Below, in pieces: positions 5,956 to 25,890 of a stretch of DNA of 34,252 nucleotides. Where the stretch lies: the NCBI GenBank assembly GCA_001939945.1, contig MOEB01000045.1:1-34252 (forward strand), given 5' to 3'. This stretch comes from Aerophototrophica crusticola. Its GTDB lineage: Bacteria > Pseudomonadota > Alphaproteobacteria > Azospirillales > Azospirillaceae. The notes beneath the pieces are model-generated. The model saw only the letters and a list, made by a program, of their open reading frames with translations, had not been told where the DNA came from and did not search any database. A program made the translations under genes and the position numbers. The stretch's first letter is position 1. Every line of letters begins with the position of its first letter.

Positions 5956-5985
5956 ATGACACCGGTATCAAAACGCTTCTATAAC
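5956..5985 (+). promoter_or_regulatory. Candidate promoter of lacI
   Basis: ATGACA (5956-5961, five of six matches to the -35 consensus) is separated by 18 bp from TATAAC (5980-5985, five of six to the -10). It points toward the lacI gene and would give a leader of about 230 nt. The operator overlaps the -35 box, which suggests autoregulation. Confidence 0.45.
5957..5970. promoter_or_regulatory. LacI-type operator, site 1
   Basis: TGACACCGGTATCA is a near-perfect 14-bp palindrome with the central C-G pair typical of LacI-family operators. It differs from perfect symmetry at one pair of bases. It shares the 10-mer TGACACCGGT with six other sites in the window and is the most symmetric of them. 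Confidence 0.7.
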
Positions 5986-6221
5986 GTCAGCGGACGCGGT
6001 GCAAGGGCCCATGTCGCTTTGCTTGTCCGGGGTCGCCTTGCCGTTTCTGGTTGTCCCGCGCCGCGGATCGGCGGTTGCCGCTTTGCCGGACGGGGCGGAG
6101 CCCTTATCTAGAGGCGACGCGCGCGGTCACCGCGACACCGTCCCGGGCGGCAGGCACAGGCGGCCTTCGCCCGGGCGGGTTTGCGGACGGGCAAGGCGGC
6201 GGTTGGCGGAAGGAACATTCC

Positions 6222-7340
6222 ATGGGACTCGGTGTCGGCCGGAAGCGGGGCGAGGCGGTGCTGGAGATGGCGGACGTCATCCCGGAAGATGCCCCCATCC
6301 CCGACGACCTGTCCTGGACCCTGAAGCGCCGCCCCACCATCAACGACGTGGCCCGGCTGTCGGGCGTCTCCAAGAAGACCGTGTCCCGGGTCATCAACCA
6401 GTCGCCGCTGGTGCGCGGCGACACGCGGGAGCGGGTGCAGAAGGTCATCGACAAGATCGGCTTCGAGCCGGACCTCCAGGCCCGCGGGCTCGCCTCCCAG
6501 CGCTCGTTCCTGCTGGGCCTCGTCTATGACAACCCCAACGCCCAGTATGTGGTGAAGATCCAGGAAGGCGTGCTGGAGGCCAGCCGCCGCGCCGGCTATG
6601 AGCTGGTGGTGCACCCCTGCGACCGCACCAGCCCCGGCCTCGCGGCGGAGGTGCGGCACTTCGTGGAGCGGCAGAAGCTGGACGGGGTGATCCTGCTGCC
6701 GCCCGTGTCGGAGAACGAGCAGGTGGCCGCGGAGTTGGCGGAGGCGGACTGCCGCTATGTCCGCGTGCTGGCCGCCCCCATCGACCGGTCGTCCAACACG
6801 GTCCTCTACTATGACTGGGAAGGGGCGGCGGAGGTGGCGGAGCACCTGGCCGACCTGGGCCACCGCAAGATCGGCTACATCGCCGGGCCCCGCAGCTTCC
6901 GCTCCGCCCACGAGCGCGACCGCGGGTTCCGCCAGGGCCTGGCCCGCCGGCGGGTGGGGCTGGACCCGGCCCTGGTGGAGGAGGGCGCCTATACCTTCGA
7001 GTCGGGGGAGGCGGCGGCGGAGAAGTTGCTGTCCCGGCCGGACCGGCCCACGGCCATCTTCGCCTGCAACGACGAGATGGCGGCCGGCGTGCTGAAGGTG
7101 GCCTACCGCATGGGGCTGCGGGTGCCGGAGGAGCTGTCCGTGGTGGGCTTCGACGACAGCCCCCTGGCCTCCCGCCTGTGGCCGTCGCTCACCACCGTGC
7201 GCCTGCCCATCAAGGAGATGGGGCAGATGGCGGCGGAGAAGCTGATCCAGCGCATCGTCAACCCGGGCACCCCACCGGCCACGGACAGCATCGTCGTGGC
7301 CCGGTTGGTGATCCGCGAATCCACCGCCAGGGCACCCTGA
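6222..7340 (+). CDS. LacI-family transcriptional regulator, probable regulator of the pectin/uronate regulon
   Basis: This DNA-binding repressor is likely to sense a pathway intermediate such as KDG or a uronate. The helix-turn-helix TINDVARLSGVSKKTVSRVI spans about residues 39-58, followed by the hinge helix region and a periplasmic-binding-protein-like effector domain (LGLVYDNPNAQYV through FDDSPLASRLWPSLTTVR). I chose ATG 6222 because AAGGA lies 7 nt upstream, giving 372 aa. This leaves a 38-residue extension before the HTH, which is longer than usual; ATG 6267 would shorten it by 15. An open frame continues upstream to 6051 but lacks coding character. Seven copies of a palindromic LacI-type site lie near this gene and pathway genes, including one at its own promoter. 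The inducer is inferred from context only. Confidence 0.88.
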   Translation: MGLGVGRKRGEAVLEMADVIPEDAPIPDDLSWTLKRRPTINDVARLSGVSKKTVSRVINQSPLVRGDTRERVQKVIDKIGFEPDLQARGLASQRSFLLGLVYDNPNAQYVVKIQEGVLEASRRAGYELVVHPCDRTSPGLAAEVRHFVERQKLDGVILLPPVSENEQVAAELAEADCRYVRVLAAPIDRSSNTVLYYDWEGAAEVAEHLADLGHRKIGYIAGPRSFRSAHERDRGFRQGLARRRVGLDPALVEEGAYTFESGEAAAEKLLSRPDRPTAIFACNDEMAAGVLKVAYRMGLRVPEELSVVGFDDSPLASRLWPSLTTVRLPIKEMGQMAAEKLIQRIVNPGTPPATDSIVVARLVIRESTARAP

Positions 7341-7348
7341 CCGGCTCC

Positions 7349-7371
7349 CCGCGCGGGCCAGGGGCGCGCGG
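7349..7371 (+). terminator. Possible terminator hairpin after lacI
   Basis: CCGCGCG (7349-7355) pairs with CGCGCGG (7365-7371) around a 9-nt loop, beginning 8 nt after the lacI stop. There is no T-tract, so this is a weak prediction based on position and stem only. Confidence 0.35.
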
Positions 7372-7404
7372 TCGGCGCGTCCCGCTACGCTTCGGGATAG
7401 GGTG

Positions 7405-7418
7405 TGACACCGGTGGGC
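7405..7418. promoter_or_regulatory. LacI-type operator, site 2 (auxiliary)
   Basis: TGACACCGGTGGGC keeps the invariant left part TGACACCGGT but has a degenerate right arm. It lies 151 bp upstream of the main receptor operator, a distance at which a tetrameric LacI protein could loop DNA. Confidence 0.5.
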
Positions 7419-7518
7419 AGCCATCGGGGCCGCCATGGCCCCGGACCGGCCGGAATTCCAGGAAAGACGCGGACCGGAAGCCCGCCACGGTCAGAAACAT
7501 GCCGTGCGCGCAGGGTGA

Positions 7519-7547
7519 TTGACATTTCCTGACCACCTTGGCATTGT
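7519..7547 (+). promoter_or_regulatory. Candidate promoter of the TonB-dependent receptor
   Basis: TTGACA at 7519-7524 is a perfect -35 box. A 17-bp spacer leads to CATTGT at 7542-7547, which matches the -10 consensus at only three positions. The operator at 7556-7569 would cover the transcription start, a classical repression position. Confidence 0.45.
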
Positions 7548-7555
7548 CCGCCGCA

Positions 7556-7569
7556 TGACACCGGTTTCC
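7556..7569. promoter_or_regulatory. LacI-type operator, site 3 (TonB receptor)
   Basis: TGACACCGGTTTCC is identical over 14 bp to the site before uxaC. It lies just downstream of the candidate promoter and 213 bp before the receptor start codon. Confidence 0.7.
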
Positions 7570-7782
7570 AACAAAGAACCGGATCAATAAGGCAGCCCAG
7601 AGCGGCGCCGGGATGGGGAGGACAGAAGGCCAGCGCACGCCGCGCCGCCAAAGAATTTCTCAGCCAAGACCAACGGGTGCCGCCCGCGACGGAAGCCGTC
7701 GCCGGGGGCAGGTGCCCGCACCGACTGATCCAGGACCAGCAAGGCCGCCAACGGAGCGAGCGGCCGGAACGGGAGAATCGCT

Positions 7783-10677
7783 ATGAAGGGTGTCAACGCG
7801 GCGTCGCGTCCGTCCATGTCCCTGGCGACCGGGGTTTCCCTTGTCGCCCTTGCCGCCGGTATCCTGGCGGCTGCCCCCGCTACCGCCCAGACGACGCCCC
7901 CGCCCCCGCCCCCGGCCGAGGAAGCCGGCGGCCTGGACGAGATCATCGTGACCGGCTTCCGCCAGTCCCTGCAGGCCGCGCTGGACCAGAAGCGCGACGC
8001 GGTCGGCTCGGTGGACGTGATCGTGGCGGAGGACATCGCCAAGTTCCCCGACCAGAACCTGGCCGAGTCCCTGCAGCGCATCCCCGGCATCTCCATCCAG
8101 CGCGACGGCGGCGAGGGCCGCGCCATCACCGTCCGCGGCCTGGGCTCCCAGTTCACCCGCGTCCGCGTCAACGGCCTGGAGACGGTCGCCACCTCCAGCG
8201 ACGGCGCCGCCGCGAACCGCGACCGCGCCTTCGACTTCAACGTCTTCGCCTCGGAGCTGTTCAGCTCCATCGTCGTGCACAAGACCGCCGAGGCCTCCCT
8301 GGACGAGGGCTCGCTGGGCGCGGTGGTGGACCTGAACACCGGCAACCCCCTGAACGGCAAGGACGGCTTCACGGTCGCCGCCTCCGCCCAGGGCAGCTAC
8401 AACGACCTGAGCAAGGACCTCGGCCCGCGCGTGGCCGGCCTGCTGTCCTACAAGTCGCCGGACAGCACCTGGGGCGTGGCCCTGTCTGCGGCCTACCAGC
8501 AGACCGAGACGCTGGAGCTGGGCAACAACACCGTGCGGTGGCAGCAGGCCCGCTTCGACAGCGTCAACGGCACCCGCTGCTTCACCACGCCCAACAGCGG
8601 CGGCACCTATGTGCCCAGCCCGAACTGCAACGCCGTGGCGCTGGCCTTCCATCCCCGCATCCCGCGCTATGGCGAGGTCCGCCATGACCGCGAGCGCCTG
8701 GGCGTGACCGGCAGCGTCCAGTGGGAGCCGACCGAGACCACGAAGCTGTCCATCGACGGCCTGTATTCCAGCTTCAAGCATGAGCGCGGCGAGAGCTGGG
8801 GCGAGGTGCTGTTCCGCGGCAACGAGCGCGCCATCGACGTCGTCAACTTCCAGATCGACCCGCAGACCAACAACCTGGTCTCCGGCACCTTCAACGATGC
8901 CTGGGTCCGCACCGAGACCTTCCTGCGCAAGTCCGAGACCCAGTTCCACCAGATCAGCGCCAAGCTGGACCAGGACATCGGCGAGTACTTCAAGGTGGAG
9001 CTGCTGGGCGGCTTCTCCAAGTCCGACGCCGACGTGCCGGTGGAGACGACCTTCGTCTTCGACGACCGCGACGCCCAGGGCTACTTCTACGACTACACCA
9101 AGTCCCGCAAGCCGGTGCTGCGCTTCGGCACCAGCGTCACCGACCCGTCCGTGTTCCAGCTGGCCGAGATCCGCGACCGGCCGAACAACGTGACGAACAA
9201 GTTCGAGACCCTGTCCCTGAAGACCAGCTGGGACGCGGCCAACCACCTGAACTTCACCACGGACGCGCTGACCGACCTGACGATCGGCATCGGCGCCGTC
9301 TACCGCAAGTTCGAGTTCGAGACCACCGCCTTCACCCGCGACACCGTGGTCTGCCCGACCCGGACCACGGCGGCCCCCGACGTGGTCCTGGGCACGGTCA
9401 CCTGCACGCCCAGCAGCGTTTTCGGGCCGACGGCGGTCTATGGCTTCCCCGTCACCGCCAGCTTGGCCCGCCTGTTCAACCTGAAGGACGCCGGCCAGCC
9501 GGACGGCACCACCACCCAGTGGCTGGTCCCCGACCTGAAGGCGGCGGCGGACTTCACCAAGCTATACGACCGGCCGCTGGCCCTGGACGCCGGCAACAAC
9601 CGGTCCGTCACCGAGGAGGTGAAGGGCGGCTACCTGGAGTTCGACGCCAAGGGCGAGCTGTTCGGCCTGGAGTACGCGGCGGACGCCGGCGTGCGCTGGG
9701 TGCGCACCGACCAGGATTCCACTGGCCTGAACAGCGGCGTGCTGGTGGACGCCAACCGGTACTATGACGACTGGCTGCCGGCCGCCAACGTGGCCCTGTA
9801 CCCGACCGAGGACATCATCGTCCGCGGCGCGGTGTCCAAGGTCATGACCCGCCCCACCCTGGGCAACCTGACGCCCGGCGGCTCGGTGGACGGCTTCAAC
9901 TACCGCGTCAACTTCGGCAACCCCCGGCTGGAGCCGTTCCGCGCCTGGTCCTATGACGTGGCCCTGGAATGGTACTTCGCGGAGGAGTCCATCGCCTCTG
10001 TCGCGTTCTTCACCAAGGACGTGAAGAGCTTCCCGGTCTCCGTCACCCAGTCCGGCACCTTCGCCTCCACCGGGCTGCCCCTGTCGGTGATCCTGCCCAG
10101 CTCCCCCGCCGCCTCCAACCCGGAAGGCCAGCCCTGGGCGATCTCCACCATCGTCAACGGCCAGGGCGCCACGCTGAAGGGCGTGGAGCTGTCCATCCAG
10201 GGCCCGTTCAGCTTCCTGCCGGGCTTCTGGTCGAACTTCGGCGGCATCGCCAACGCCACCTTCGTGGACAGCGACGCCGACTACACCCTGCAGGGCCCCG
10301 CCACCTCGCCCGGCGGCGCGCTGGTGCGGGCGGACCGCAGCGCCCCGCTGTTCAACCTCTCCAAGCGGGCCTTCAACGGCACCCTCTACTATGAGGAGGA
10401 GAAGTTCAGCGCCCGCGTGTCCGCCAGCTACCGCAGCGGCTTCATCGACGGGTCCAGCGCCACGGGCAACCTGTTCGAAGGCTACAACTCCTCCTTCAAC
10501 CTGGATGCCTCGGTGCGTTACCGCCTGACCGAGGAGCTGGAGCTGTCGTTGGAAGGCGTCAACCTGACCGACGACTACCGCGACCGGTTCACGGACGAGG
10601 ATGCCAACCGGAACTACGAGTATAACCACTTCGGCCGTACCATCCTGTTCGGCGTCCGCTACAAGATGGCGAACTAA
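7783..10677 (+). CDS. TonB-dependent receptor (Caulobacter-type), probable oligogalacturonide importer
   Basis: This 964-residue outer-membrane protein imports ligand using TonB-transduced energy. It has a signal peptide ending near ATAQ (residue 36), a proline-rich linker, a TonB-box-like D-E-I-I-V-T-G-F-R (52-60), and a plug with FPDQNLAESLQRIPGISIQRDGGEGRAI-type sequence and VRGLGSQFTRVRVNG. A long barrel follows, ending YNHFGRTILFGVRYKMAN. The plug motifs match the Caulobacter-type TonB receptor family, which is commonly linked to carbohydrate uptake. Length is normal and no N-terminal signalling extension is present, so it is not a FecA-type sigma regulator. Two operator-like sites lie upstream and the uxaC operon follows directly, so pectin oligomers are the likely substrate. 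The ligand is inferred from context. Confidence 0.9.
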   Translation: MKGVNAASRPSMSLATGVSLVALAAGILAAAPATAQTTPPPPPPAEEAGGLDEIIVTGFRQSLQAALDQKRDAVGSVDVIVAEDIAKFPDQNLAESLQRIPGISIQRDGGEGRAITVRGLGSQFTRVRVNGLETVATSSDGAAANRDRAFDFNVFASELFSSIVVHKTAEASLDEGSLGAVVDLNTGNPLNGKDGFTVAASAQGSYNDLSKDLGPRVAGLLSYKSPDSTWGVALSAAYQQTETLELGNNTVRWQQARFDSVNGTRCFTTPNSGGTYVPSPNCNAVALAFHPRIPRYGEVRHDRERLGVTGSVQWEPTETTKLSIDGLYSSFKHERGESWGEVLFRGNERAIDVVNFQIDPQTNNLVSGTFNDAWVRTETFLRKSETQFHQISAKLDQDIGEYFKVELLGGFSKSDADVPVETTFVFDDRDAQGYFYDYTKSRKPVLRFGTSVTDPSVFQLAEIRDRPNNVTNKFETLSLKTSWDAANHLNFTTDALTDLTIGIGAVYRKFEFETTAFTRDTVVCPTRTTAAPDVVLGTVTCTPSSVFGPTAVYGFPVTASLARLFNLKDAGQPDGTTTQWLVPDLKAAADFTKLYDRPLALDAGNNRSVTEEVKGGYLEFDAKGELFGLEYAADAGVRWVRTDQDSTGLNSGVLVDANRYYDDWLPAANVALYPTEDIIVRGAVSKVMTRPTLGNLTPGGSVDGFNYRVNFGNPRLEPFRAWSYDVALEWYFAEESIASVAFFTKDVKSFPVSVTQSGTFASTGLPLSVILPSSPAASNPEGQPWAISTIVNGQGATLKGVELSIQGPFSFLPGFWSNFGGIANATFVDSDADYTLQGPATSPGGALVRADRSAPLFNLSKRAFNGTLYYEEEKFSARVSASYRSGFIDGSSATGNLFEGYNSSFNLDASVRYRLTEELELSLEGVNLTDDYRDRFTDEDANRNYEYNHFGRTILFGVRYKMAN

Positions 10678-10706
10678 GGGGATCGGAAGTCCCCTGGAAG
10701 CAGGGA

Positions 10707-10720
10707 TGACACCGGTTTCC
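10707..10720. promoter_or_regulatory. LacI-type operator, site 4 (uxaC operon)
   Basis: TGACACCGGTTTCC, identical to the receptor site, lies 90 bp before the uxaC start. It overlaps a possible -35 box. Confidence 0.7.
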
Positions 10721-10743
10721 AAAATGTAGTAAACGAGTATAGT
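10716..10743 (+). promoter_or_regulatory. Candidate promoter of the uxaC-kduI-kduD-TRAP-pectate lyase operon
   Basis: TTTCCA (10716-10721) is followed after 16 bp by TATAGT (10738-10743, five of six to the -10 consensus) in a locally AT-rich stretch that stands out in this GC-rich sequence. The operator covers the -35 position. Confidence 0.45.
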
Positions 10744-10810
10744 ACAACCTGCCGCGGGGCGGCCTACCAAGGTCGCCCCGCCTATTCCCGAAGCGTGAAG
10801 GCCAAGAGAC

Positions 10811-12235
10811 ATGGCAAGACCCCTGGTGCTGCACGAAGACCGGCTGTTCCCCGCCGATCCAGGCGCCCGGGCCATCGCCCGCCGGCTGTACCAGTCCGTG
10901 CGGGACCTGCCGATCATCAGCCCGCACGGCCACACGGACCCGTCCTGGTTCGCCACGGACGCGCCCTTCGCCAACGCCACCGACCTGCTGCTGGTGCCGG
11001 ACCACTACCTGTTCCGGATGCTCTACAGCCAGGGCGTGTCGCTGGAATCCTTGGGCATCCCGGGCCGGCAGGGACGCCCGGCCGTGGACCCGCGGGAGGC
11101 CTGGCGGATCTTCGCCAGCCACCAGCACCTGTTCCGCGGCACCCCGTCTTCCCTGTGGCTGGACCACACCTTCGCCACCGTCTTCGGCCTGGACGTGCGG
11201 CTGGGGCCGGACACGGCGGACCATTACTACGACACCATCACCGCGAAGCTGGCAGAAACGGATTTCCGCCCGAGGGCCCTGTTCGACCGGTTCCGGATCG
11301 AGCTGCTGGCCACCACGGAATCCCCCGTGGACACGCTGGCCCACCATGAGGCGATCCGCGCCAGCGGCTGGGAAAGCGGCCGGGCCGGCCGGGTGGTCAC
11401 CGCCTACCGCCCCGACCCGGTCATCGACCCGGAGCATGAGGCCTTCCAGGCCAGCCTGGCCCGGTTCGCCGAGGTGACGGGGGAGGATGTCCATTCCTGG
11501 GACGGCTACCTGGCTGCCCACCGGAAGCGGCGCGCCGACTTCGCCAGGGTGGGCGCCACCTCCACCGACCACGGCCACCCCACCGCCCTGACCGCCGACC
11601 TGCCGCGGGCGGAGGCCGAGGCCCTGTTCCGCACCGTCGTGTCCGGCAAGGCCACGCCGGCGGAGGCCGAGCTGTTCCGCGCTCAGATGCTGACCGAGAT
11701 GGCGGCCATGAGCGTGGAGGACGGGCTGGTCATGCAGCTCCACCCCGGCTCCTTCCGCAACCACAACCCGCTGCTGTTCCAGGGTTATGGCCGGGACAAG
11801 GGCGCCGACATCCCCACGCCCACCGACTATGTCCGGTCGCTGAAGCCGTTGCTGGACCGGTTCGGCAACGACAAGCGCCTGACCCTGATCCTGTTCACCC
11901 TGGACGAGACGTCCTACGCCCGTGAGCTGGCGCCGCTGGCCGGGCATTACCCCGCCCTTCGCCTGGGTCCCGCCTGGTGGTTCCACGACAGCCCCGAGGG
12001 GATGCTGCGGTTCCGCGAGATGACCACGGAGACGGCCGGCTTCTACAACACTGTCGGCTTCAACGACGACACCCGCGCCTTCCTGTCCATCCCGGCCCGC
12101 CACGACGTGGCCCGCCGGGTGGATTGCGCCTACCTCGCCAAGCTGGTGGCCGAACACCGGCTGGACGAGGAAGACGCCCAACAGGTGGCCGCGGACCTCG
12201 CCTACGCGCTGCCCAAGCGCGCCTACAAACTGTGA
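10811..12235 (+). CDS. uxaC: Uronate isomerase (glucuronate/galacturonate isomerase)
   Basis: UxaC converts D-galacturonate to D-tagaturonate and D-glucuronate to D-fructuronate in the cytoplasm, the first step of the isomerase pathway. At 474 aa it has the usual family length. Seen motifs are the N-terminal [12 protein letters not shown] with His39 and His41 (amidohydrolase-like metal ligands), [24 protein letters not shown], and the C-terminal [29 protein letters not shown]. The ATG follows AAGAGA/GAAGG, a modest ribosome-binding site. It opens an operon in which seven more genes follow with short gaps or overlaps, under the operator at 10707. KduI begins 29 bp after its stop. Confidence 0.95.
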
Positions 12236-12264
12236 GCGGCGACGCCGCGCACCCGGGAGGCACC

Positions 12265-13110
12265 ATGTTCGCCAAGAATTACCACGCGACCCACCCGTCC
12301 ATGATGGCCGGGGCCAGCAACGACGATCTGCGCGACCGTTACCTGGTCGGCGGGCTGTTCCAGCCGGGCCAGATCAACCTGGCCTACTCGCACCATGAGC
12401 GGTTCGTCATCGGCGGCGCGGCACCGGAGGGCACGGCCCTGGAGCTGCCGAAGCAGACCGAGCCGGCGTCCGCCGCCGGCAAGCCGTTCCTGGAGCGGCG
12501 GGAGCTGGGCATCGTCAATGTGGGCGGCCCCGGCACCGTGACCGTGGACGGCACGGCCTATGAGCTGGCCACCCGCGACGGGCTGTATGTGCCCATGGGG
12601 ACGGAAAGCGTCACCTTCGCCTCGGCCGACGCGGCCAGCCCGGCCAACTTCTACCTGGTCAGCACCCCGGCCCACGCCCGGTTCGAGACGGTGAAGATCT
12701 CCATCGACCAGGCCGTCCCGCTGGAGCGCGGCTCGCTGGAGACCAGCAACGAGCGGACCATCTACCAGTACATCATCCCGGGCGTCTGCAAGTCCGCCCA
12801 GCTGCTGCTGGGGCTGACCATCCTGAAGCCGGGCAGCGTCTGGAACACCATGCCGCCGCACCTGCACCTGCGCCGGTCCGAGGTGTACTTCTACTTCGAC
12901 CTGAAGCCCGACGCCCGGGTCTTCCACTTCATGGGCGAGCCGGAGGCGGCCCGTCACATCGTGGTGGACGACAAGGAAGCCGTGGTGTCCCCGCCCTGGT
13001 CGATCCACATGGGCTCCGGCACCAGCAACTACAGCTTCATCTGGGCCATGGGCGGCGAGAACCAGGACTACACCGACATGCAGGTGCTCGACATCTGCCA
13101 GCTCCGCTGA
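12265..13110 (+). CDS. kduI: 5-keto-4-deoxyuronate isomerase (4-deoxy-L-threo-5-hexosulose-uronate ketol-isomerase)
   Basis: KduI isomerises the unsaturated-end product of pectate lyase digestion (5-keto-4-deoxyuronate) to 3-deoxy-D-glycero-2,5-hexodiulosonate, the substrate of KduD. The 281-aa length fits the family. The zinc site is intact: H199 and H201 in [14 protein letters not shown]206 in the same stretch, and H248 in PWSIHMGSG. Other signatures are [23 protein letters not shown] and [14 protein letters not shown] 12265 is chosen because GGGAGG precedes it closely; the open frame upstream overlaps uxaC and is spurious. It is in the uxaC operon, 16 bp before kduD. Confidence 0.95.
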
Positions 13111-13126: not shown

Positions 13127-13885
13127 ATGAGTGCGCTGTTCAGCCTGAAGGGCCGTGCCGCCATCGTCACCGGGGCCAACACGGGCCTGGGCCAGGGGCT
13201 GGCCGTGGCGCTGGCCCAGGCCGGCGCCGACATTGCCGCCGTGGGCCGCACCCCGCCGACGGAGACGGAGGCCGCGGTGCGGGAGGTGGGCGCCCGCTTC
13301 ACCTTCATCCAGGCCGACCTGGGCACGAACGCCCCGGTGGGCGAGGTGGTGGCCAAGGCGGTGGAGGCCCATGGCCGGGTGGACATCCTGGTGAACAACG
13401 CCGGGACCATCCGCCGGGCCGACGCGCTGGAGTTCTCGGAAGCCGACTGGGACCTGGTGCTGGACGTCAACCTGAAGACGCCCTTCTTCCTGGCCCAGGC
13501 CGCGGCGCGGCAGATGCTGGCACAGGGCACGGGCGGCAAGATCATCAACATCGCCTCCATGCTGTCCTTCCAGGGCGGCATCCGGGTGGCGTCCTATACC
13601 GCCAGCAAGAGCGGCATCGCCGGGCTGACCAAGCTGCTGGCGAACGAATGGGCGGCCAAGGGCATCAACGTCAACGCCATCGCCCCCGGCTATTTCGAGA
13701 CCAACAACACCGAGGCCCTGCGCCAGGACCAGCAGCGGAACCGGGACATCCTGGCCCGCATCCCGGCCGGCCGCTGGGGCGTGCCGGCCGACCTGGGCGG
13801 GGCGGCGGTCTTCCTGGCCTCCGACGCCGCTGCCTATGTGCATGGCGCGGTGATCCCGGTGGACGGCGGCTGGCTGGCGCGCTGA
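13127..13885 (+). CDS. kduD: 2-deoxy-D-gluconate 3-dehydrogenase / 2-dehydro-3-deoxy-D-gluconate 5-dehydrogenase (SDR)
   Basis: KduD reduces 3-deoxy-D-glycero-2,5-hexodiulosonate to 2-keto-3-deoxygluconate (KDG) with NAD(P)H. It is a classical short-chain dehydrogenase of 252 aa. The Rossmann motif TGANTGLG is at 15-22, NNAG at 90-93, and the catalytic Ser144, Tyr157 and Lys161 (YTASK) are in place. INVNAIAPGYFETNNTEALR is the typical substrate-loop region of KduD proteins. GGGAAGGGGCG precedes the ATG. It is directly downstream of kduI, the classic pairing, and 70 bp upstream of the FAH-family gene. Confidence 0.93.
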   Translation: MSALFSLKGRAAIVTGANTGLGQGLAVALAQAGADIAAVGRTPPTETEAAVREVGARFTFIQADLGTNAPVGEVVAKAVEAHGRVDILVNNAGTIRRADALEFSEADWDLVLDVNLKTPFFLAQAAARQMLAQGTGGKIINIASMLSFQGGIRVASYTASKSGIAGLTKLLANEWAAKGINVNAIAPGYFETNNTEALRQDQQRNRDILARIPAGRWGVPADLGGAAVFLASDAAAYVHGAVIPVDGGWLAR

Positions 13886-13955: not shown

Positions 13956-14774
13956 ATGACCGCGGTCGCGGCGTTGCAGGAGATTTCGAAGGCCTTCACC
14001 GGCGCCCGCCGGGCGGCCCGCGCGTTGCCGGACTACCCCGGGGCGATCCCGGAAGACCTTGCCACGTCCTATGCCATCCAGGACCTGTCCCTGCGGGCTT
14101 GGCCGGACCAGGCGGTGGGCTGGAAGGTGGGCATGGTGCCGCCGTCATTCCGTGCCGCCCTGGGCGCCGAGCGGCTGGCCGGCCCGATCTTCAGCCGTCG
14201 CGTCTGGCAGGCCGTCCCCGGCACGCCGACCACCGTCCCCGTCTTCGTCGGCGGCTTCGCGGCGGTGGAGGCGGAGTTCGTGGTGCGCCTTTCCCACGAC
14301 CTGCCCCTTGCCGGCGGGCACGTGTCGGCGGAAGAGGCGACCTACCTCGCCGCCGCCATGCATGTGGGGGTGGAGATGGCGGGCAGCCCGCTGGCCACCA
14401 TCAACCAGCTCGGCCCCACGGTGGTGGCCAGCGACTTCGGCAACAATGCCGGCCTGATCCTGGGGCCGGAGATCCCGGGCTGGCGGGAGGCCGACCCGGC
14501 CAACCTGACCTGCCGCACCCTGATCGACGGCAAGGTGGTGGGGGAGGGAAGTGCCGCCTCCGTCCCCGGCGGGCCGCTGGCGGCCTTCCGCTTCCTGCTG
14601 GACCATGCCCGGTCGCGCGGGCTGGTGCTGAGGGCCGGCACCCTGGTCTCCACCGGCGCCACCACGGGCATCCACGACATCGGCGCCGGCCAGTCCGCGC
14701 GGGTGGAGTTCGACGGCGTCGCCGCGATCGAGCTGGTGACCGTGGCGGCGACGGGCGAGGGGGATGGGGCATGA
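13956..14774 (+). CDS. FAH-superfamily hydratase (2-keto-4-pentenoate hydratase-like)
   Basis: This 272-residue protein belongs to the fumarylacetoacetate-hydrolase superfamily, MhpD/hydratase branch. GWKVGM (about 56-61), the metal-binding E105-x-E107 in EAEFVVRLS, E140 in VGVEMAGS, the segment ASDFGNNAG (158-166) and STGATTGIHDIGAGQ near the end all match that branch. Family enzymes hydrate or cleave 2-keto acids. No step of the known KduI/KduD/UxaC pathway needs such an enzyme, so its substrate here is open; a 2-keto-3-deoxy or unsaturated uronate side product is possible. A strong GGGGAGG purine tract precedes the ATG, and its stop overlaps dctP as ATGA, so it is co-translated with the transporter. 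Confidence 0.8.
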   Translation: MTAVAALQEISKAFTGARRAARALPDYPGAIPEDLATSYAIQDLSLRAWPDQAVGWKVGMVPPSFRAALGAERLAGPIFSRRVWQAVPGTPTTVPVFVGGFAAVEAEFVVRLSHDLPLAGGHVSAEEATYLAAAMHVGVEMAGSPLATINQLGPTVVASDFGNNAGLILGPEIPGWREADPANLTCRTLIDGKVVGEGSAASVPGGPLAAFRFLLDHARSRGLVLRAGTLVSTGATTGIHDIGAGQSARVEFDGVAAIELVTVAATGEGDGA

Positions 14775-15778: not shown

Positions 15779-16265
15779 CGCCATCGCCGCCGTCTCCCGC
15801 CTCCTCAGCCGGCTGTTCCTCTGGTTCGCCGGGATCGGCCTGGTGGTCATGACCGGCATCATCGGCTGGCAGGTCTTCGCCCGCTACGTGCTGGAGGCCA
15901 GCCCCGCCTGGTCGGAGCAGGCCTCGCTGGTGCTGATGATCTGGTACATCAGCCTGGCCGCCGCCGCCGGCGTACGTGAGGGCTTCCACATCCGCATGAC
16001 GGTGCTGGAGGACATGTCCCCCCGCGCCAAGCCCTGGCTGCGCCTCGCGGCCCACGCCATCGTCGGCGCCATCGGCGTCGCCATGGCCGTGTGGGGGGCG
16101 GAGCTGGTCCGCTTCACCTGGCCCCATGCCATACCCACCCTGCCCATCCCCCGCGGGGTGGCGTACCTGCCCATCCCCATCTCCGGCCTGCTGATCGTGC
16201 TCTTCGCGCTGGAGCAGGCCCTGGCCGAGCGCCTGGGCAGAAAGGTCGAGCCCCAATGGAACTGA
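15771..16265 (+). CDS. dctQ: TRAP transporter small permease (DctQ family)
   Basis: The small membrane subunit of the TRAP transporter has 164 aa and four predicted membrane helices. FLWFAGIGLVVMTGIIGWQVFARYVLEASPAWSEQASLVLMIWYISLAAAAGVREGFHIRM contains the family's V-F-x-R-Y and W-x-E-E/Q-x-S motifs and the G-x-H-I motif. It starts inside the end of dctP (8-bp overlap) and overlaps dctM by 10 bp, so all three subunits are translationally coupled. Confidence 0.92.
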   Translation: MLDAIAAVSRLLSRLFLWFAGIGLVVMTGIIGWQVFARYVLEASPAWSEQASLVLMIWYISLAAAAGVREGFHIRMTVLEDMSPRAKPWLRLAAHAIVGAIGVAMAVWGAELVRFTWPHAIPTLPIPRGVAYLPIPISGLLIVLFALEQALAERLGRKVEPQWN

Positions 16266-17536
16266 CCGTCCTCATGGGCAGCCTCGGCGTGCTGCTCCTC
16301 ATCGGCGTGCCGGTCGCCTTCGCGCTGCTGGGCGCCTCGCTGCTGACCCTCATGGTGCTGGACATCCCCCTGGTGGTGGCGTTCCAGCAGATGGCGGCGG
16401 GGATGAACATCTTCGCCCTGATCGCCATCCCCTTCTTCGTCTTCGCCGGCGACTTGATGCACCATGCCGGCATCGCCCGGCGCATCGTCCAGGTGGCGGA
16501 CGCCGTCCTGGGCCGCACCCGCGGCGGGCTGGGGCAGGTGAACGTAGGCGCCAGCATGCTGTTCGGCGCCGTGTCCGGCTCCGCCATCGCCAGCGTCTCC
16601 GCCCTGGGCTCCACCCTCATGCCCATGATGAAGGAGAAGGGGTACGACGCGGACTACGCCGTCAACGTCACCACCACGGCGGCCATCACCGGCCTGCTGA
16701 TCCCGCCGTCGCACAACATGATCATCTACGCGGCGGCCGCCGGCGTGGGCGTCTCGGTGAACGAGCTGTTCCTGGCCGGCGTCATCCCCGGCATCCTGAC
16801 CGGCGGCCTGCTGATGGTCGCGGCCTGGCTGGTCGCGGTGAAGCGCGGCTACCCGCGCGGGCAGTTCCCGGGCTGGCGGGCCTTCGGCCTTGCCCTGGCG
16901 GCCGCCCTGCCGGGCCTGACGACCGCGCTGATCATCTTCATCGGCGTGCTGGCCGGCCTGTTCACGCCGACGGAATCCTCCGCCGTCGCGGTGATCTACA
17001 CGGTGATCGTGGCCGCCTTCGTCTACCGCTCCATGGGGCGGGAGGGCTTCTTCGCCGCCGTCACCGGGGCGGTGCGCACCACGGCCATGGTGATGCTGAT
17101 CATCGGCGCCGCCGGCACCTTCGGCTGGCTGGTGGCGCTGCTGGAGGCGCCGGCCCAGCTCGCCGCCCTGATCCAGTCCCTGTCCGACAACCCCATCGTG
17201 GTGATGCTGGTCATCAACCTGATGCTGCTGATCCTGGGCACCTTCATGGACATGGCACCGCTGATCGTCATCGGCACGCCCATCTTCCTGCCGGTGGCCC
17301 AGGCGGTGGGCGTGGACCCCGTGCATTTCGGCATCATCATGATGCTGAACCTGGGCATCGGGCTGGTCACGCCGCCGGTGGGGTCGGTCCTGTTCGTGGG
17401 CGCCGCCATCGGCAGGATCAAGGTGGAGCAGGCGGTGAAGACCATCTGGCCCTTCTACCTGGCCCTGGCCGCGTCGCTGGCGCTGATCACCTACGTGCCC
17501 TACCTGTCCCTGGCCCTGCCGCAGCTCAGCCGCTGA
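16256..17536 (+). CDS. dctM: TRAP transporter large permease (DctM family)
   Basis: The large permease of the TRAP system, probably Na+-coupled, has 426 aa and about 12 membrane segments. ATG 16256 overlaps the end of dctQ; an upstream extension to 16091 would run wholly within dctQ and is spurious. Family motifs include LIAIPFFVFAGDLMHHAGIARR, FGAVSGSAIASVSALGS, TTTAAITGLLIPPSHNMI, FTPTESSAVAVIYT and MLNLGIGLVTPPVGSVLFV. The next gene, pectate lyase, begins 20 bp downstream, which links uptake and depolymerisation in one transcript. Confidence 0.94.
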   Translation: MELTVLMGSLGVLLLIGVPVAFALLGASLLTLMVLDIPLVVAFQQMAAGMNIFALIAIPFFVFAGDLMHHAGIARRIVQVADAVLGRTRGGLGQVNVGASMLFGAVSGSAIASVSALGSTLMPMMKEKGYDADYAVNVTTTAAITGLLIPPSHNMIIYAAAAGVGVSVNELFLAGVIPGILTGGLLMVAAWLVAVKRGYPRGQFPGWRAFGLALAAALPGLTTALIIFIGVLAGLFTPTESSAVAVIYTVIVAAFVYRSMGREGFFAAVTGAVRTTAMVMLIIGAAGTFGWLVALLEAPAQLAALIQSLSDNPIVVMLVINLMLLILGTFMDMAPLIVIGTPIFLPVAQAVGVDPVHFGIIMMLNLGIGLVTPPVGSVLFVGAAIGRIKVEQAVKTIWPFYLALAASLALITYVPYLSLALPQLSR

Positions 17537-17556: not shown

Positions 17557-19338
17557 ATGACCCCCCGCCTTGTTCCGATCGCCGGCGATCGTGACCGATC
17601 AACGGCGCCCTCAGACGCCGGGCGCCGCCATCCGGCGGCTTGGCTTACGCGGGCATGGGCCCGCGGGCCGGCGGTCGCCGGCCTCCAAGCGCAAGGGCCG
17701 TTGGCCCATGCGCTTGGCCCCACCCGCCGCGCGGTGCTGGGCGCCGCCCTGGTGCTGTCCGCCGCCCTGCTGCCGATGCCGTCCCTGGCCGCGGCGGACC
17801 CGGCGCTGCGGCAGCAGGCGCTGGACACCATGCGCAAGGCCACCCGCTTCATGACGGAGAAGGTGGCCTACCAGGGCGGCTATGTCTGGTCCTACCTGCC
17901 GGACATGTCCCGCCGCTGGGGGGAGATCGAGGCCACCCCCACCATGGTCTGGATCCAGCCCCCCGGCACGGCCACCGTGGGCCATGTCTTCCTGGACGCG
18001 TACAACGCCACGGGCGACGAGTCCTACTACAAGGCGGCGGAGCAGGTGGCCGGCGCCCTCATCAAGGGCCAGCACCCGGCGGGCGGCTGGAACTATGTGG
18101 TGGATTTTGCCGGGGAAGAGGCGCTGAAGAAGTGGTACGCCACGGTCGGCGCCAACGCCTGGCGGCTGGAGGAATTCCAGCACTATTACGGCAACGCCAC
18201 CTTCGACGACGCGGGCACGGCCGAGTCCTCGCAGTTCCTGCTGCGCATGTATGTGGCGAAGAAGGACCCCAAGTACCGCCCGGCCCTGGACAAGACGATC
18301 CGCTTCGTCCTGGACAGCCAGTACCCCAACGGCGGCTGGCCGCAGCGCTTCCCCTTCGCGGAACAGGCGTCCCTGCACGGCAAGCCGGACTATACCCGCT
18401 ACATCACCTTCAACGACGACGTGGCGGCGGAGAACATCAAGTTCCTGATCATGGTCTACCAGGCGCTGGGCGACCGCACGGTGCTGGACGCCGTGCGCCG
18501 GGGCATGGACATCTTCACGGTGACCCAGCAGAAGGCCCCCCAGGCGGGCTGGGCCCTGCAATACACCCCGGACCTGCAGCCGGCCGGCGCCCGCAGCTAT
18601 GAGCCGAAGGCCCTGGTGACCCACACCACGGCGGCCAACATCGGCCAGCTGATGGATTTCTACCAGCTCACCGGCGACCCGAAGTACCTGGCGCCCATCC
18701 CGGCGGCCCTGGACTGGCTGGAGAGGGTGAAGCTGCCCGCGGACCAGGTGAAGAACAACCGGACCCACCCGACCTTCATCGAGATCGGCACCGACCGTCC
18801 GCTCTATGTCCACCGCCGCGGCTCCAACGTGGTGAACGGCGAGTATTACGTGGACTACGATCTCAAGAACACCATCACCCACTACTCCAGCACCCGGGCC
18901 GTGGACCTGGCGGGCCTGCGCAAGCGGTATGAGGCGCTGAAGGCCACCCCGCCGGCGGAGGCCGCCCGCAACTCGCCGCTGAAGGCGGAAGGGATCGTCG
19001 GCCTGCCCCGGTATTTCTCCCTCCGCCCCATCGAGGTGTCCGACCTGAACAGCGACGCCGCCAGCGCGGCGGAGAAGCAGTCGGACGCGGCCAAGGTGAA
19101 GGAAGTGGTCGGCGCCCTGAACGCGGAGGGCTGGTGGCCCAGCGAGCTGCGGGCCGTCAGCAATCCCTATGTGGGCCCCGGCAACAAGACGCCGGAACCC
19201 GGCGACTTCTCCCAGACCCGCGTCGGCGACCGCACCGACACCTCTCCCTACATCACCGACACGCCCGCCATCGGCATCTCCACCGGCCTGTTCGTGCAGA
19301 ACATGGCGACGCTGCTGGGGTATGTGGCGAAGGAGTGA
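17557..19338 (+). CDS. Pectate lyase (PL10-like family), secreted
   Basis: This enzyme cleaves de-esterified polygalacturonate by beta-elimination, giving unsaturated ends that KduI and KduD process. At 593 aa it is long. The lyase part shows NGGWPQRFPF, RYITFNDDVAAENIKFL, GWALQYTPDLQPAGARSYEPKALVT and FIEIGTDRPLYVHRRGSN, which resemble PL10/PelA-type pectate lyases. ATG 17557 has an excellent GGAGGAGAG site, but about 53 residues of odd sequence precede the signal-like R-R-A-V-L-G-A-A-L-V-L-S-A-A-L-L-P. The corresponding DNA is dense in inverted repeats, including a 15-bp hairpin at 17685-17717. A later start near 17701-17734 would give a normal signal peptide. A last-gene position in the uxaC operon is inferred. 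Confidence 0.87.
   Translation: MTPRLVPIAGDRDRSTAPSDAGRRHPAAWLTRAWARGPAVAGLQAQGPLAHALGPTRRAVLGAALVLSAALLPMPSLAAADPALRQQALDTMRKATRFMTEKVAYQGGYVWSYLPDMSRRWGEIEATPTMVWIQPPGTATVGHVFLDAYNATGDESYYKAAEQVAGALIKGQHPAGGWNYVVDFAGEEALKKWYATVGANAWRLEEFQHYYGNATFDDAGTAESSQFLLRMYVAKKDPKYRPALDKTIRFVLDSQYPNGGWPQRFPFAEQASLHGKPDYTRYITFNDDVAAENIKFLIMVYQALGDRTVLDAVRRGMDIFTVTQQKAPQAGWALQYTPDLQPAGARSYEPKALVTHTTAANIGQLMDFYQLTGDPKYLAPIPAALDWLERVKLPADQVKNNRTHPTFIEIGTDRPLYVHRRGSNVVNGEYYVDYDLKNTITHYSSTRAVDLAGLRKRYEALKATPPAEAARNSPLKAEGIVGLPRYFSLRPIEVSDLNSDAASAAEKQSDAAKVKEVVGALNAEGWWPSELRAVSNPYVGPGNKTPEPGDFSQTRVGDRTDTSPYITDTPAIGISTGLFVQNMATLLGYVAKE
17577..17590. repeat. 14-bp perfect palindrome GATCGCCGGCGATC
   Basis: The palindrome lies 20 bp inside the annotated 5' end of the pectate lyase frame, and a further GATC follows at 17597-17600. 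It may be chance in GC-rich DNA or part of the inverted-repeat cluster that continues to 17717. No function is known. Confidence 0.4.
17685..17717 (+). repeat. Strong 15-bp hairpin within the 5' part of the pectate lyase frame
   Basis: The left arm 17685-17699 (CCAAGCGCAAGGGCC) and right arm 17703-17717 (GGCCCATGCGCTTGG) pair with one mismatch around a 3-nt loop. The hairpin sits just upstream of the codons for the likely signal peptide. It could be a palindromic repeat element, an attenuator or a ribosome-blocking structure. Confidence 0.55.
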
Positions 19339-23284: not shown

Positions 23285-23920
23285 TCAGGCCTGGGGGGCG
23301 GGGGAAAAGGCGGCGGCGGCCCGGGCGTTGGCCGCGATCGCGTCCCAGTCACCTGCCTTCAGCAGCGCGGGCGGGGCGATCCAGGTGCCGCCCACGGCCA
23401 CCACGTTCTTGAGCGCCAGGTAAGACGGCACCTTGTCCTTGCTGATCCCGCCGGTGGGGCAGAAGCGGGCGTGGGGCAGGGGGCCGGCGATGGCCTGCAG
23501 CGTGCCGACGCCGCCATACTGCTCCGCCGGGAACAGCTTCAGCACCTCGAACCCGTCGGACAGCCGGTCGATGCACTCGCTGGGGGTGGCGACACCCGGC
23601 AGGACCGGCACGCCGGACCCCAGCAGGGCCGGCACCAGCCGGGCAGGCGTGCCGGGGCTGACCAGGAACCTGGCCCCGGCGCCCAGGGCCCGGTCCACGT
23701 CCGCCGGGGACAGGATGGTGCCGGCGCCCACGGTCAGGCCCGGGATCTCCGCCATCCGGCGGATCGCCTCCACCGCGGCAGGCGTGCGCAAGGTGATCTC
23801 CGCCGTCCTGATCCCGGCTTCCACCAGCACCTCGCCCAGTCGGCCCGCATCCTCCGCCCGGTCGATGACCAGCACGGGAACGACGGGGGAGGCGGTGAGC
23901 AGGTTGAGGAAGTCGGTCAT
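23285..23920 (-). CDS. eda: KDPG/KHG aldolase (2-dehydro-3-deoxy-phosphogluconate aldolase)
   Basis: Eda splits 2-keto-3-deoxy-6-phosphogluconate into pyruvate and glyceraldehyde-3-phosphate, the last step of this pathway. The 211-aa length is typical. Catalytic Glu41 lies in AEITLRT (with Arg45 for substrate), the Schiff-base Lys128 in VLKLFPAE, and FCPTGGISKDKVPSYLAL provides the phosphate-binding loop. GGAG lies 9 nt before the ATG. It is divergent from kdgK and shares with it a 171-bp region carrying two operator copies, so KDG phosphorylation and cleavage are co-regulated. Confidence 0.95.
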   Translation of the reverse strand: MTDFLNLLTASPVVPVLVIDRAEDAGRLGEVLVEAGIRTAEITLRTPAAVEAIRRMAEIPGLTVGAGTILSPADVDRALGAGARFLVSPGTPARLVPALLGSGVPVLPGVATPSECIDRLSDGFEVLKLFPAEQYGGVGTLQAIAGPLPHARFCPTGGISKDKVPSYLALKNVVAVGGTWIAPPALLKAGDWDAIAANARAAAAFSPAPQA

Positions 23921-23954
23921 CTCGGAAGCTCCGGTCCGGGTAGGGATTGGGAAT

Positions 23955-23984
23955 TTGACACCGGTGACATGGACAGCTTATGCA
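23955..23984 (+). promoter_or_regulatory. Candidate promoter of kdgK
   Basis: TTGACA at 23955-23960 is a perfect -35 box and TATGCA at 23979-23984 a weak -10, with an 18-bp spacer, pointing toward kdgK. Operator 5 covers the -35 box and operator 6 the expected start region. Confidence 0.4.
23956..23969. promoter_or_regulatory. LacI-type operator, site 5 (eda/kdgK)
   Basis: TGACACCGGTGACA, identical to the next site 35 bp downstream. It is nearer the eda start (36 bp away) and overlaps a -35-like TTGACA for kdgK. Confidence 0.7.
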
Positions 23985-23990
23985 AGGAGA

Positions 23991-24004
23991 TGACACCGGT
24001 GACA
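23991..24004. promoter_or_regulatory. LacI-type operator, site 6 (eda/kdgK)
   Basis: TGACACCGGTGACA, the second of two identical copies in the divergent eda/kdgK region and 88 bp before the kdgK ATG. Paired sites suggest cooperative binding or separate control of the two promoters. Confidence 0.7.
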
Positions 24005-24091
24005 ACCCCTTTCTGCCCATTCCGGTGGCAGCAGGGGGGCGGGGCCGGTAGGCTTGCCACCAGAAGCGAACGGGTTGGGGGAGGATCGGTC

Positions 24092-25111
24092 ATGGGCGCG
24101 CGCTTTGTCTTCTTCGGCGAGTTGTTGCTACGCCTGTCCGCCCCGGGGCGGGAGCTGATCCTGCAGACCCCGCGGTTCGACGTGCATGTGGGCGGGGCAG
24201 AGGCGAACGTGGCCGTGTCCCTGGCGCGCTTCGGCCATGACTGCGCGATGGTGGGTACCGTCGCCGCCAACCCGCTGGGCGAGGCGGCATTGGGGGAACT
24301 GCGGCGTCACGGGGTGCGCACCGACGCCGTCCGGGCGGTGCCGGGCCGCATGGGACTGTATTTCCTGGCCACCGGCGCCCTCAGCCGCCCGTCGGAGATC
24401 GTCTATGACCGGGCCGATTCGGCCTTTGCCAAGCATGCCGCCGACGGCCGCGACTGGCCCCGCCTGCTGGCGGGGGCGGACTGGCTGCACGTCTCCGGCG
24501 TGACGCCCGCGGTCAGCGAGGCGGCCGGCGTGGCCGCCCTGCATGCCGTGCGGGCGGCCGTGGATGCCGGGGTCAGGGTCTCCTTCGACTGCAACTACCG
24601 CCAGAAGCTGTGGGAAGCCCGCGGCACCGACGGACGCGCCGTGCTGAAGGAACTGGCATCCCACGCCACCCTGCTGTTCGGCAACCAGCGGGACATCGCC
24701 CTGATGCTGGCCACCGGCTTCGACCAGGTCCCGGCCGGGGAGCGGTTCGCCGCCGCCGCGCAGGCGGCATTCCAGGCCTTCCCGCGGCTGGAGCGCATCG
24801 CCAGCACCATCCGCTCCCACGATTCCGTGGACTGCCAGGACCTGGCGGGGCAGATGGCCGGCCGGGACGGCTCGCTGGTCCGCACGGCCAGCCGCGGCAT
24901 GACCGGCATCGTGGACCGCATCGGCGGTGGCGACGCCTTCGCCGCCGGCCTGCTGCACGGCATCGCCACGGGCATGGACGGGCAGGCGGCGCTGGAATTC
25001 GGCGTGGCTGCCGGGGTGCTGAAGCACTCGGTCCCCGGTGACGCCAGCTTGGTCAGCCTCGCGGACGTGGAGGCCTGCGTCGCCGGCGGCGGCCTGGACG
25101 TGCGGCGGTAG
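24092..25111 (+). CDS. kdgK: 2-keto-3-deoxygluconate kinase (PfkB family)
   Basis: KdgK phosphorylates KDG to KDPG with ATP, feeding Eda. It is 339 aa from ATG 24092, chosen for the GGGGGAGGA just upstream; the open frame continuing back to 23471 runs antisense through eda and is spurious. PfkB features are GGAEANVAVSLARFG (34-48), a substrate region SFDCNYRQKLW, and signature 2 DRIGGGDAFAAGLLHG with the catalytic base Asp281. D-R-I-G-G-G-D in place of D-T-T-G-A-G-D is usual in KdgK-type kinases. It converges on a TetR gene with 23 bp between stops. Confidence 0.93.
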   Translation: MGARFVFFGELLLRLSAPGRELILQTPRFDVHVGGAEANVAVSLARFGHDCAMVGTVAANPLGEAALGELRRHGVRTDAVRAVPGRMGLYFLATGALSRPSEIVYDRADSAFAKHAADGRDWPRLLAGADWLHVSGVTPAVSEAAGVAALHAVRAAVDAGVRVSFDCNYRQKLWEARGTDGRAVLKELASHATLLFGNQRDIALMLATGFDQVPAGERFAAAAQAAFQAFPRLERIASTIRSHDSVDCQDLAGQMAGRDGSLVRTASRGMTGIVDRIGGGDAFAAGLLHGIATGMDGQAALEFGVAAGVLKHSVPGDASLVSLADVEACVAGGGLDVRR

Positions 25112-25134
25112 GCCGCTCGGCCGGCCGGGGGGGC

Positions 25135-25803
25135 TCAGCCGCCCCGCCGGATGGCGCGGACGAACAGGGCGGCTTGGTCGGCCCCGGCCTCCCCGTCGGC
25201 CAGCCAGCCCCAGACGGCCGTCCCATGCAGCCCGGCCACCAGGGCCAGCAGGGCGGGGCGGACCTGCTCCCGGTCCACCTGCCTGGCGTTCCCGTCGATG
25301 GCATCCACCGCCGCGCGCACGGCCTCCGCCAGCTCCCCCATATCCGCCGCCACCTGGGCGCGCAAGGCCGGGTCGGGGGAGGCAAGGACGGCGCGGTAGA
25401 GGTTGCGGTCCTCCTCGAACACCCGGACCAGCAAGCGGGCCAGGGACGTGGCGAACTCCCCCAGATCCCGCCGCCGCCAGCGGCCGGGCTCTAGGAACGC
25501 CGCCAGGGTCTGCCGCAGGGCGCCCGTGTGCACCCGGTACAGGGCGGACAGCAGGGTCGTCTTGTCCCGGAACCGGGCATAGATGGAGGGCGGGGAGCAG
25601 CCGGCCAGGGCCGTGATCTCATCGATGGTGATGGCGTCCAGGGGCTTCTGCCGCAGCAGCGACCGCACCACGTCCACGATCAGGTGCATGGTCGCCTCGG
25701 CCCGCTTGTGCCGGGGCAGGGTGATGCCGTCGATCCCGGCCAGGTCGGCCAGGTTGATGGCCGGAGGCGCCTTGACGGGCGCCAGGGGGAGGGGGGCGGT
25801 CAT
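25135..25803 (-). CDS. TetR-family transcriptional regulator
   Basis: This 222-aa protein carries a TetR-type DNA-binding domain after a 34-residue leader: AITIDEITALAGCSPPSIYARFRDKTTLLSALY, with the HTH near 58-79. The C-terminal part is helical and variable, as expected for ligand sensing, and includes a GLHGTAVWGWLADG segment common in TetR C-terminal domains. AGGAGG precedes the ATG. It is divergent from uxaA across 150 bp that contains a LacI-type operator. Its target and ligand are unknown; it could add a second layer of control on uxaA or act only on itself. Confidence 0.85.
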   Translation of the reverse strand: MTAPLPLAPVKAPPAINLADLAGIDGITLPRHKRAEATMHLIVDVVRSLLRQKPLDAITIDEITALAGCSPPSIYARFRDKTTLLSALYRVHTGALRQTLAAFLEPGRWRRRDLGEFATSLARLLVRVFEEDRNLYRAVLASPDPALRAQVAADMGELAEAVRAAVDAIDGNARQVDREQVRPALLALVAGLHGTAVWGWLADGEAGADQAALFVRAIRRGG

Positions 25804-25850
25804 GGCGGCGGTCCTCCTCTTTATCCCGGGCGGTCATGCGCGGCCCGGCA

Positions 25851-25879
25851 TTGCCTTGTCGGCTGGTGCCCCGTATGGT
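25851..25879 (+). promoter_or_regulatory. Candidate promoter of uxaA
   Basis: TTGCCT (25851-25856) and TATGGT (25874-25879, four of six to the -10 consensus) are 17 bp apart and point to uxaA. The operator at 25877-25890 overlaps the -10 and start region. Confidence 0.4.
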
Positions 25880-25890
25880 AACCGGTGTCA
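25877..25890. promoter_or_regulatory. LacI-type operator, site 7 (uxaA)
   Basis: GGTAACCGGTGTCA is the reverse orientation of TGACACCGGTTACC, so the invariant 10-mer reads on the minus strand. It is 64 bp before the uxaA start and 74 bp before the TetR start. Confidence 0.68.

Follow-up and report, generated by a model that had tools for sequence, protein, structure and literature searches.

Our analysis of a 34,252-nucleotide stretch of Aerophototrophica crusticola DNA (contig MOEB01000045.1, positions 1 to 34,252; hereafter the window) suggests that pectin and uronate breakdown is quite probably repressed by a homodimer of a LacI-family protein, acting through operators that mix two different half-sites and are fused to promoters. 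The protein encoded at about positions 6267-7340 would be a sugar-acid-responsive repressor that binds, as a homodimer, 14-bp operators with a central ACCGGT; most of these would pair a half-site A, TGACACC, with a half-site B, GGWAACC, together TGACACC-GGTTWCC or the mixed 14-mer TGACACCGGTTWCC. Sites of A/A type (TGACACCGGTGTCA, TGACACCGGTGACA) would serve mainly TonB receptors and kdgK, and mixed sites the catabolic operons. We propose that the mixed operator overlies the promoter, either in its TTCC form between the -35 and -10 boxes or with TACC supplying the first bases of the -10 box, that the bound repressor may block RNA polymerase, and that an intermediate of uronate breakdown, perhaps 2-keto-3-deoxygluconate (KDG), may release it.

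The 10-mer TGACACCGGT has seven exact matches in the window, where chance predicts 0.08; 100 dinucleotide shuffles never gave as many. These are the seven positions given by a sequence-only reading of the window, which had also correctly described the ten constant left bases and the right arms ATCA, GGGC, TTCC, TTCC, GACA, GACA and TACC. All seven sites lie between genes recognised by Pfam or NCBIfam, in agreement with their description as noncoding; a few overlap open frames without any family match (the frame 5510-5971 was searched), which we take as spurious. With up to two mismatches allowed, the window held 37 matches against 32.5 +/- 5.6 expected, so near-matches add nothing; the strictness of the left arm is not merely a search artefact.

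The right arm is a second half-site, which reads GGWAACC on its own strand. We examined 80 loci, the best 80 of 130 genome-contig matches to the window LacI protein (952,631 bases), which span Azospirillaceae, Asticcacaulis, Sphingomonadales, Hyphomonadaceae-like bacteria, Lysobacterales, two betaproteobacterial metagenome-assembled genomes (MAGs) and others, and which hold 181 exact 10-mers and no reversed 10-mer. When ACCGGT cores were searched in these loci and the window without requiring the 10-mer (n=467), the commonest halves were TGAC (188), GGTA (79) and GGAA (60), and they were paired as TGAC/GGTA 75 times, TGAC/GGAA 50 times, TGAC/TGTC 7 times and TGAC/TGAC 6 times. By class this amounts to 125 mixed A/B sites, 13 A/A sites and no B/B site, whereas random pairing predicts about 69 mixed sites and none of 50,000 shuffles reached the observed number. 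To lessen phylogenetic dependence, we thinned the sites by the identity of their flanks rather than with a tree; the thinned set, from which one TGTC-containing mixed site was set aside, retained 13 A/A, 87 A/B and no B/B sites, a pairing that shuffles again never reached. Since TACC and TTCC form a distinct half-site in 125 of the 188 right-arm readings, we rejected the model of one dominant half with a free right arm; the sequence-only reading had paired such a dominant half with a co-factor, and none was identified.

A comparable pairing was found in whole genomes. Among 18 of the 19 genomes of the order that carry a relative of the window LacI (match at E <= 1e-60; genome G063 was left out here and kept in the site-count test below), 120 of 198 sites were mixed, 33 were A/A and 10 were B/B. 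Dropping all 19 TGTC/GGWA sites, an exclusion that lowers the mixed count and removes more than codons (the site at L182 2667, for instance, precedes lacI), left 101 mixed sites, still never reached by shuffles. Mixed sites were not in excess in genomes without a LacI relative, where the 75 sites listed included 7 mixed, 2 A/A and 7 B/B. The halves in the 18 genomes were TGWC in 197 cases and GGWA in 149, against 13 for TGWA and 37 for GGWC, so that T1/C4 and G1/A4 tend to switch together.

That this LacI is the binder, as had been supposed from the window, is likely in view of synteny, co-occurrence over genomes and the recognition helix S-K-K-T-[VI]-S-R, which is present in all 80 LacI relatives. 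Scoring uronate genes by blastp matches of >35% identity to window proteins, we found both a site and a uronate gene in 70 of the 80 loci, a uronate gene alone in one, a site alone in none and neither in nine; the sole uronate locus without an exact site, L101, has a site with one mismatch. Six of the nine loci with neither hold Nitrospirillum/Azospirillum LacI paralogues of 56-58% identity. These paralogues (L040, L042, L043, L045, L047 and L048) have the same recognition helix, and no exact operator or uronate gene in the fetched locus. In genus g11, five of seven genomes carry a LacI copy of 61-63% identity plus one of 57-59%, a sixth (G063) carries a 57% copy and a partial 60% copy, and G065 has uronate genes with sites near its 62% copy. 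We also counted the loose palindromic pattern KGWMACCGGTKWCM in 82 genomes of the order; its mean is 11.1 where a LacI relative is present (19 genomes) and 2.6 where it is absent (63 genomes; p 3e-11).

The genes beside the sites include uxaC, uxaA-like genes, kduI, kduD, kdgK-like genes, eda and pectate lyase genes. Because genes were assigned by blastp against the window proteins and by simple reading frames, 33 of the 181 sites have no assigned gene. The median distance from a mixed site to the estimated start is 64-80 bp at the FAA-hydrolase-family gene (FAH), kduI, uxaA and uxaC, and 94 of the 100 assigned mixed sites in the 80 loci read toward the gene. As expected of LacI/GalR operators, the sites have an even length, a central CG and an ACCGGT core near a target gene; they depart from the like halves of a palindrome, which is a feature of the operator and not of the protein family. 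The window had been described as holding a local pectin/uronate regulon. LacI-type operators do mark such a regulon, and the word local does not hold, since in sister species sites of the same kind lie elsewhere in the genome at scattered pectin genes, either upstream or up to a few hundred bases into the called frame; these genes encode pectate lyase, pectinesterase, GH28, GH88 and GH43 enzymes, a GDSL esterase, a major facilitator superfamily transporter and a TonB receptor.

The two forms of the B half are associated with different predicted promoter registers. We scored nonredundant mixed sites whose A half is distal to the gene, counting a TTG box when two or more of its three bases matched. 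Of 32 TTCC sites, 25 carry this box at -7 (23 with all three bases) and 22 carry TA at 17-18, so that these sites tend to show predicted -35 and -10 boxes separated by 17 bp, the operator lying in the spacer. Of 48 TACC sites, 28 carry the TTG box at -13 (18 with all three bases) and one carries TA at 17-18; with TTG at -13, the TA of TACC (11-12) therefore falls 17 bp behind the -35 box, and TACC sites tend, with exceptions, to begin a predicted -10 box. The two registers differ with Fisher p values of 5e-5 and 3e-9. With lineages assigned from record titles, the -7 box of TTCC sites holds up in Lysobacterales (11 of 11), Azospirillaceae (4 of 4), Sphingomonadales (4 of 5) and the betaproteobacterial MAGs (2 of 2); it is less consistent in unclassed Proteobacteria MAGs (2 of 3) and poor in Asticcacaulis (1 of 3), gammaproteobacterial MAGs (1 of 3) and Hyphomonadaceae-like bacteria (0 of 1). 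The -13 box of TACC sites occurs in Azospirillaceae (7 of 8), Asticcacaulis (9 of 14), Sphingomonadales (3 of 4), betaproteobacterial MAGs (2 of 2), Arenicella (1 of 2) and a Proteobacteria MAG (1 of 1), and is missing from the one site of a gammaproteobacterial MAG (0 of 1). A box scan that gave many boxes at offset -1 in all classes was set aside, because the fixed TGACA likely produces them.

Several observations weigh against a promoter-fused, mixed operator as a general rule. The -13 box of TACC sites is weak in Lysobacterales (5 of 16), and in 35 of 48 TACC sites the putative -10 box does not end in the customary T. The window sites themselves show boxes poorly, with one promoter-like match in 5500-10820 and the later sites read by eye. 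Of 143 nonredundant assigned sites, 63 are not gene-ward TACC or TTCC sites. Twelve nonredundant mixed sites are reversed, three of them at pectate lyase; the four reversed TACC sites lack the -13 box, and three of these, all from Azospirillaceae, carry TTG at -7, for which the scheme has no explanation. Some uxaA and FAH sites of Asticcacaulis end in ATCA or ATCT, and three Hyphomonadaceae-like loci (L082, L086 and L108) have the nearly symmetric TGACACCGGTGTCT at uxaA and uxaC, so that mixed halves are not obligatory everywhere.

A single LacI protein appears to be enough for mixed sites. A search for PF00356 in 24 genomes that have mixed sites detected one LacI-family gene in four of them, namely, Arenimonas terrae R29 (G084) and Citromicrobium JLT1363 (G092), isolates according to their titles, and the MAGs G093 and G089, whose mixed operators are seen in loci L058, L087, L110 and L112. 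Since these four genomes keep mixed sites, a second LacI-family protein is not needed there, and a homodimer reading unlike halves would be the simplest account. The more specific proposal, to which we give slightly less than an even chance, is that the mixed operator is native to the homodimer: identical subunits would read TGACACC and GGWAACC, which differ by a joint exchange of T1/C4 for G1/A4, the TA or TT form would encode which part of the promoter is covered, and operator and promoter would evolve as a fused, directional element in Alpha-, Beta- and Gammaproteobacteria. As a guess, the exchange looks as if one lysine of the KK pair contacted the guanine opposite position 4 or at position 1.

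It is conceivable, though in our judgment rather unlikely, that the mixture instead tunes affinity, with TGACACC as the strong half and the right half as a weakened copy, such that promoters would be derepressed at different inducer levels. The division of labour among the sites would suit such tuning, as the A/A sites of the 80 loci are assigned to TonB receptors in 15 of 15 cases and the mixed sites nearly all lie at catabolic operons, and so would the occurrence of other right arms (GTCT, ATCA and AGCA). Weakening would permit many sequences, yet TACC and TTCC make up 125 of the 188 arms in three proteobacterial classes, and the joint switching of T1/C4 and G1/A4 likewise speaks against a merely degraded half. 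We consider it unlikely that promoter constraint alone shapes the right half, which would then differ only through its overlap with promoter boxes. The TTG at -13 of TACC sites and the sharp difference between the TACC and TTCC registers are in line with this idea, but TTCC sites keep GGAAACC although the spacer in which they lie requires no particular promoter base, and all 12 reversed sites retain the B half, including eight TTCC sites that have neither box of their class (two of these have a TTG-like box at -13). Very improbable, in our estimation, is a B half that serves as the site of another, non-LacI factor adjoining LacI; one-LacI genomes and a B half conserved on its own terms are compatible with such a partner, but A and B share the ACC core and an exact symmetry about the central CG, like the halves of one dimer site. 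The least credible alternative is a heterodimer of the window LacI and a second LacI-family protein, each on one half, which would give A-with-B pairing far above chance and for which intergenic B/B palindromes (GGTAACCGGTTACC) exist in sister species, but we rejected it for the genomes with one detected LacI-family gene, where mixed sites persist, and the B/B palindromes examined do not lie at uronate genes.

The perfect B/B palindrome GGTAACCGGTTACC is present as a single copy in the genomes of several sister species; where the neighbourhood was read, it precedes a pntA-like transhydrogenase gene by about 325 bp. Intergenic copies lie at L137 2019-2032 before the pntA-like gene (identified by Pfam), before homologous 385-aa frames in L158, L165 and L181, and before a GT20 gene in L174, and were kept in the pairing count; a further copy is at G072:C151:102-115, and G054 has a GGAA/GGAA site. 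Other candidates lie inside TonB receptors, where codons GTC/GTA-ACC-GGT-TTC/TAC mimic an operator (L129 5994, L143 2138, L175 2024, L179 2081 and others). Two B/B candidates (L175 and L179) and seven TGTC/GGWA sites are of this kind and encode a VTGF/VTGY motif, and the candidates in L193 and L201 are also within TonB receptor frames. Such codons are a trap for motif scans.

The putative repressor gene (6267-7340, plus strand; likely start ATG 6267, predicted from the frame) encodes an ordinary LacI/GalR-family member, with PF00356, PF13377 and PF00532 all above cut-off, i.e., a LacI helix-turn-helix (HTH) and a periplasmic-binding-protein-like sugar domain (Pfam LacI and Peripla_BP_3). The HTH is encoded at 6336-6473 and its recognition helix reads SKKTVSRVIN. 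The closest solved relatives by sequence include CcpA, LacI and PurR, the regulator scored below cut-off with every NCBIfam model (best, 194.6 bits against 340), and the nearest LacI relatives, at 67-69% identity, are in Oleisolibacter albus and Niveispirillum irakense. The near-palindromic operator TGACACCGGTATCA, with right arm ATCA, lies at 5957-5970 on the plus strand, about 300 bp before lacI and about 450 bp before a divergent BD-FAE esterase gene; the gap of about 700 bp between the two genes (5510-6266) holds this one operator and no other identified feature. Between lacI and the TonB-dependent receptor gene (TonB-Xanth-Caul subfamily; 7783-10677, plus strand) stand the 10-mer at 7405-7418 (plus strand), whose unmatched right arm GGGC makes it a weak or doubtful operator, and the mixed operator TGACACCGGTTTCC at 7556-7569 (plus strand). 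The sequence-only reading had suggested a tetramer loop between these two sites; looping is without support, because their spacing of 151 bp corresponds to 14.4 helical turns and the GGGC arm fits neither half-site class.

The second copy of TGACACCGGTTTCC, at 10707-10720 (plus strand), lies before uxaC, and the promoter-like boxes TTTCCA-16-TATAGT overlap it. By family matches, the genes that follow on the plus strand encode glucuronate isomerase (uxaC, 10811-12235), 5-dehydro-4-deoxy-D-glucuronate isomerase (kduI, 12241-13110), KduD (13127-13885), an FAA-hydrolase-family protein (13956-14774; NCBIfam matches far below cut-off), a tripartite ATP-independent periplasmic (TRAP) transporter, DctP-DctQ-DctM (14764-17536; the DctP start is approximate and its open frame runs from 14099), and a pectate lyase (Pec_lyase, 17557-19338). 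Two A/A-type operators TGACACCGGTGACA, at 23956-23969 and 23991-24004 (plus strand), form a tandem pair 35 bp apart between the divergent genes for an eda-type 2-keto-3-deoxy-6-phosphogluconate/2-keto-4-hydroxyglutarate aldolase (23285-23920, minus strand; family match) and a PfkB kinase, probably kdgK (24044-25111, plus strand; start approximate, PfkB above cut-off and KDG-kinase models below theirs). Tandem operators 34-35 bp apart (3.2-3.3 turns), near kdgK or a TonB receptor, also occur at L035 10399/10433, where one member ends in AGCA, and at L036 2455/2489. The mixed operator TGACACCGGTTACC, with right arm TACC, lies on the minus strand at 25877-25890, 43 bp before genes for a uxaA-like dehydratase (galactarate/altronate dehydratase family; galactarate dehydratase model below cut-off) and a mannitol-dehydrogenase-family, uxaB/uxuB-like reductase (25933-28943, plus strand).

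A genome-wide count, which had been proposed as a check, bore out an enrichment of the 10-mer, with 22 exact matches in 6.06 Mb, seven of them in the 34-kb contig (about 204 per Mb there and 2.5 per Mb elsewhere); a reversed control 10-mer occurs three times in the whole genome. Most of the 15 other matches lie inside open frames and four are at polysaccharide genes: before a LamG-domain gene (C21:326), in the start region of a pectate lyase frame (C212:199889), early in a GH43 frame (C212:218169) and before a TonB receptor (C212:221046). Outside polysaccharide loci the bare 10-mer is thus near chance, and the specific signal is the 14-mer with its second half. A second polysaccharide cluster of this genome (G000:C212:192000-226275; loci L028 and L029) holds genes for a pectate lyase, a GH43 enzyme, a dehydratase and a TonB receptor, another LacI (HTH at 215781-215918, helix SAMTVSRVIN) and four 10-mers with arms AGCA, GGAA, ATCA and ATCA.

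The survey by Ravcheev et al. (2014) describes LacI/GalR motifs as palindromes of highly conserved inverted repeats and names ExuR, KdgR, UxaR and UxuR as glucuronate/galacturonate regulators, with six uronate groups (PMC4052901). The system described here resembles those surveyed in its even operator, central CG, promoter-region sites and local carbohydrate regulons, and autoregulation is common in that survey (PMC4052901); unlike the palindromes described there, most sites here have two different halves. The LacI recognition code of Camas et al. (2010) covers regulators that, like this one, carry TVSR in the recognition helix, and in principle it considers mixed, non-palindromic pairs of half-sites; its significant combinations are usually palindromes and mixtures are compatible with weaker regulation (PMC2978694), whereas mixed sites predominate here and the 80 loci lack one of the two palindromes. 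The E. coli lac operator O1 is likewise a natural operator with unequal halves and one repressor. Its asymmetry includes an intervening base, and LacI is described as failing to bind the mixed site when that base has been taken out (PMC2978694); the unlike halves found here stand at symmetric spacing, in many operators and many species. The Xanthomonas XylR xyl-box TGGTAGCGCTAACA is also a 14-bp sugar-regulon box with a central CG and, from its letters, slightly unequal halves, but it has another sequence and sugar, and its halves differ at one position, compared with two or three here (PMC10380989). Other uronate or TonB systems are treated in two further reports (PMC5507952 and PMC1790865). 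An exact-motif search of the open-licence literature returned no title pointing to this regulon, which RegPrecise or the subscription literature may catalogue; a conserved, preferred mixture of half-sites tied to promoter register looks new.

Regulon methods that seek palindromes could blur or miss such mixed sites, and the specific 14-mer could help to locate genes for pectin and uronate use in many little-studied bacteria. If the homodimer truly prefers mixed halves, this would be a clean natural system in which to study how identical subunits read different sequences, and also how operator and promoter sequences constrain each other.

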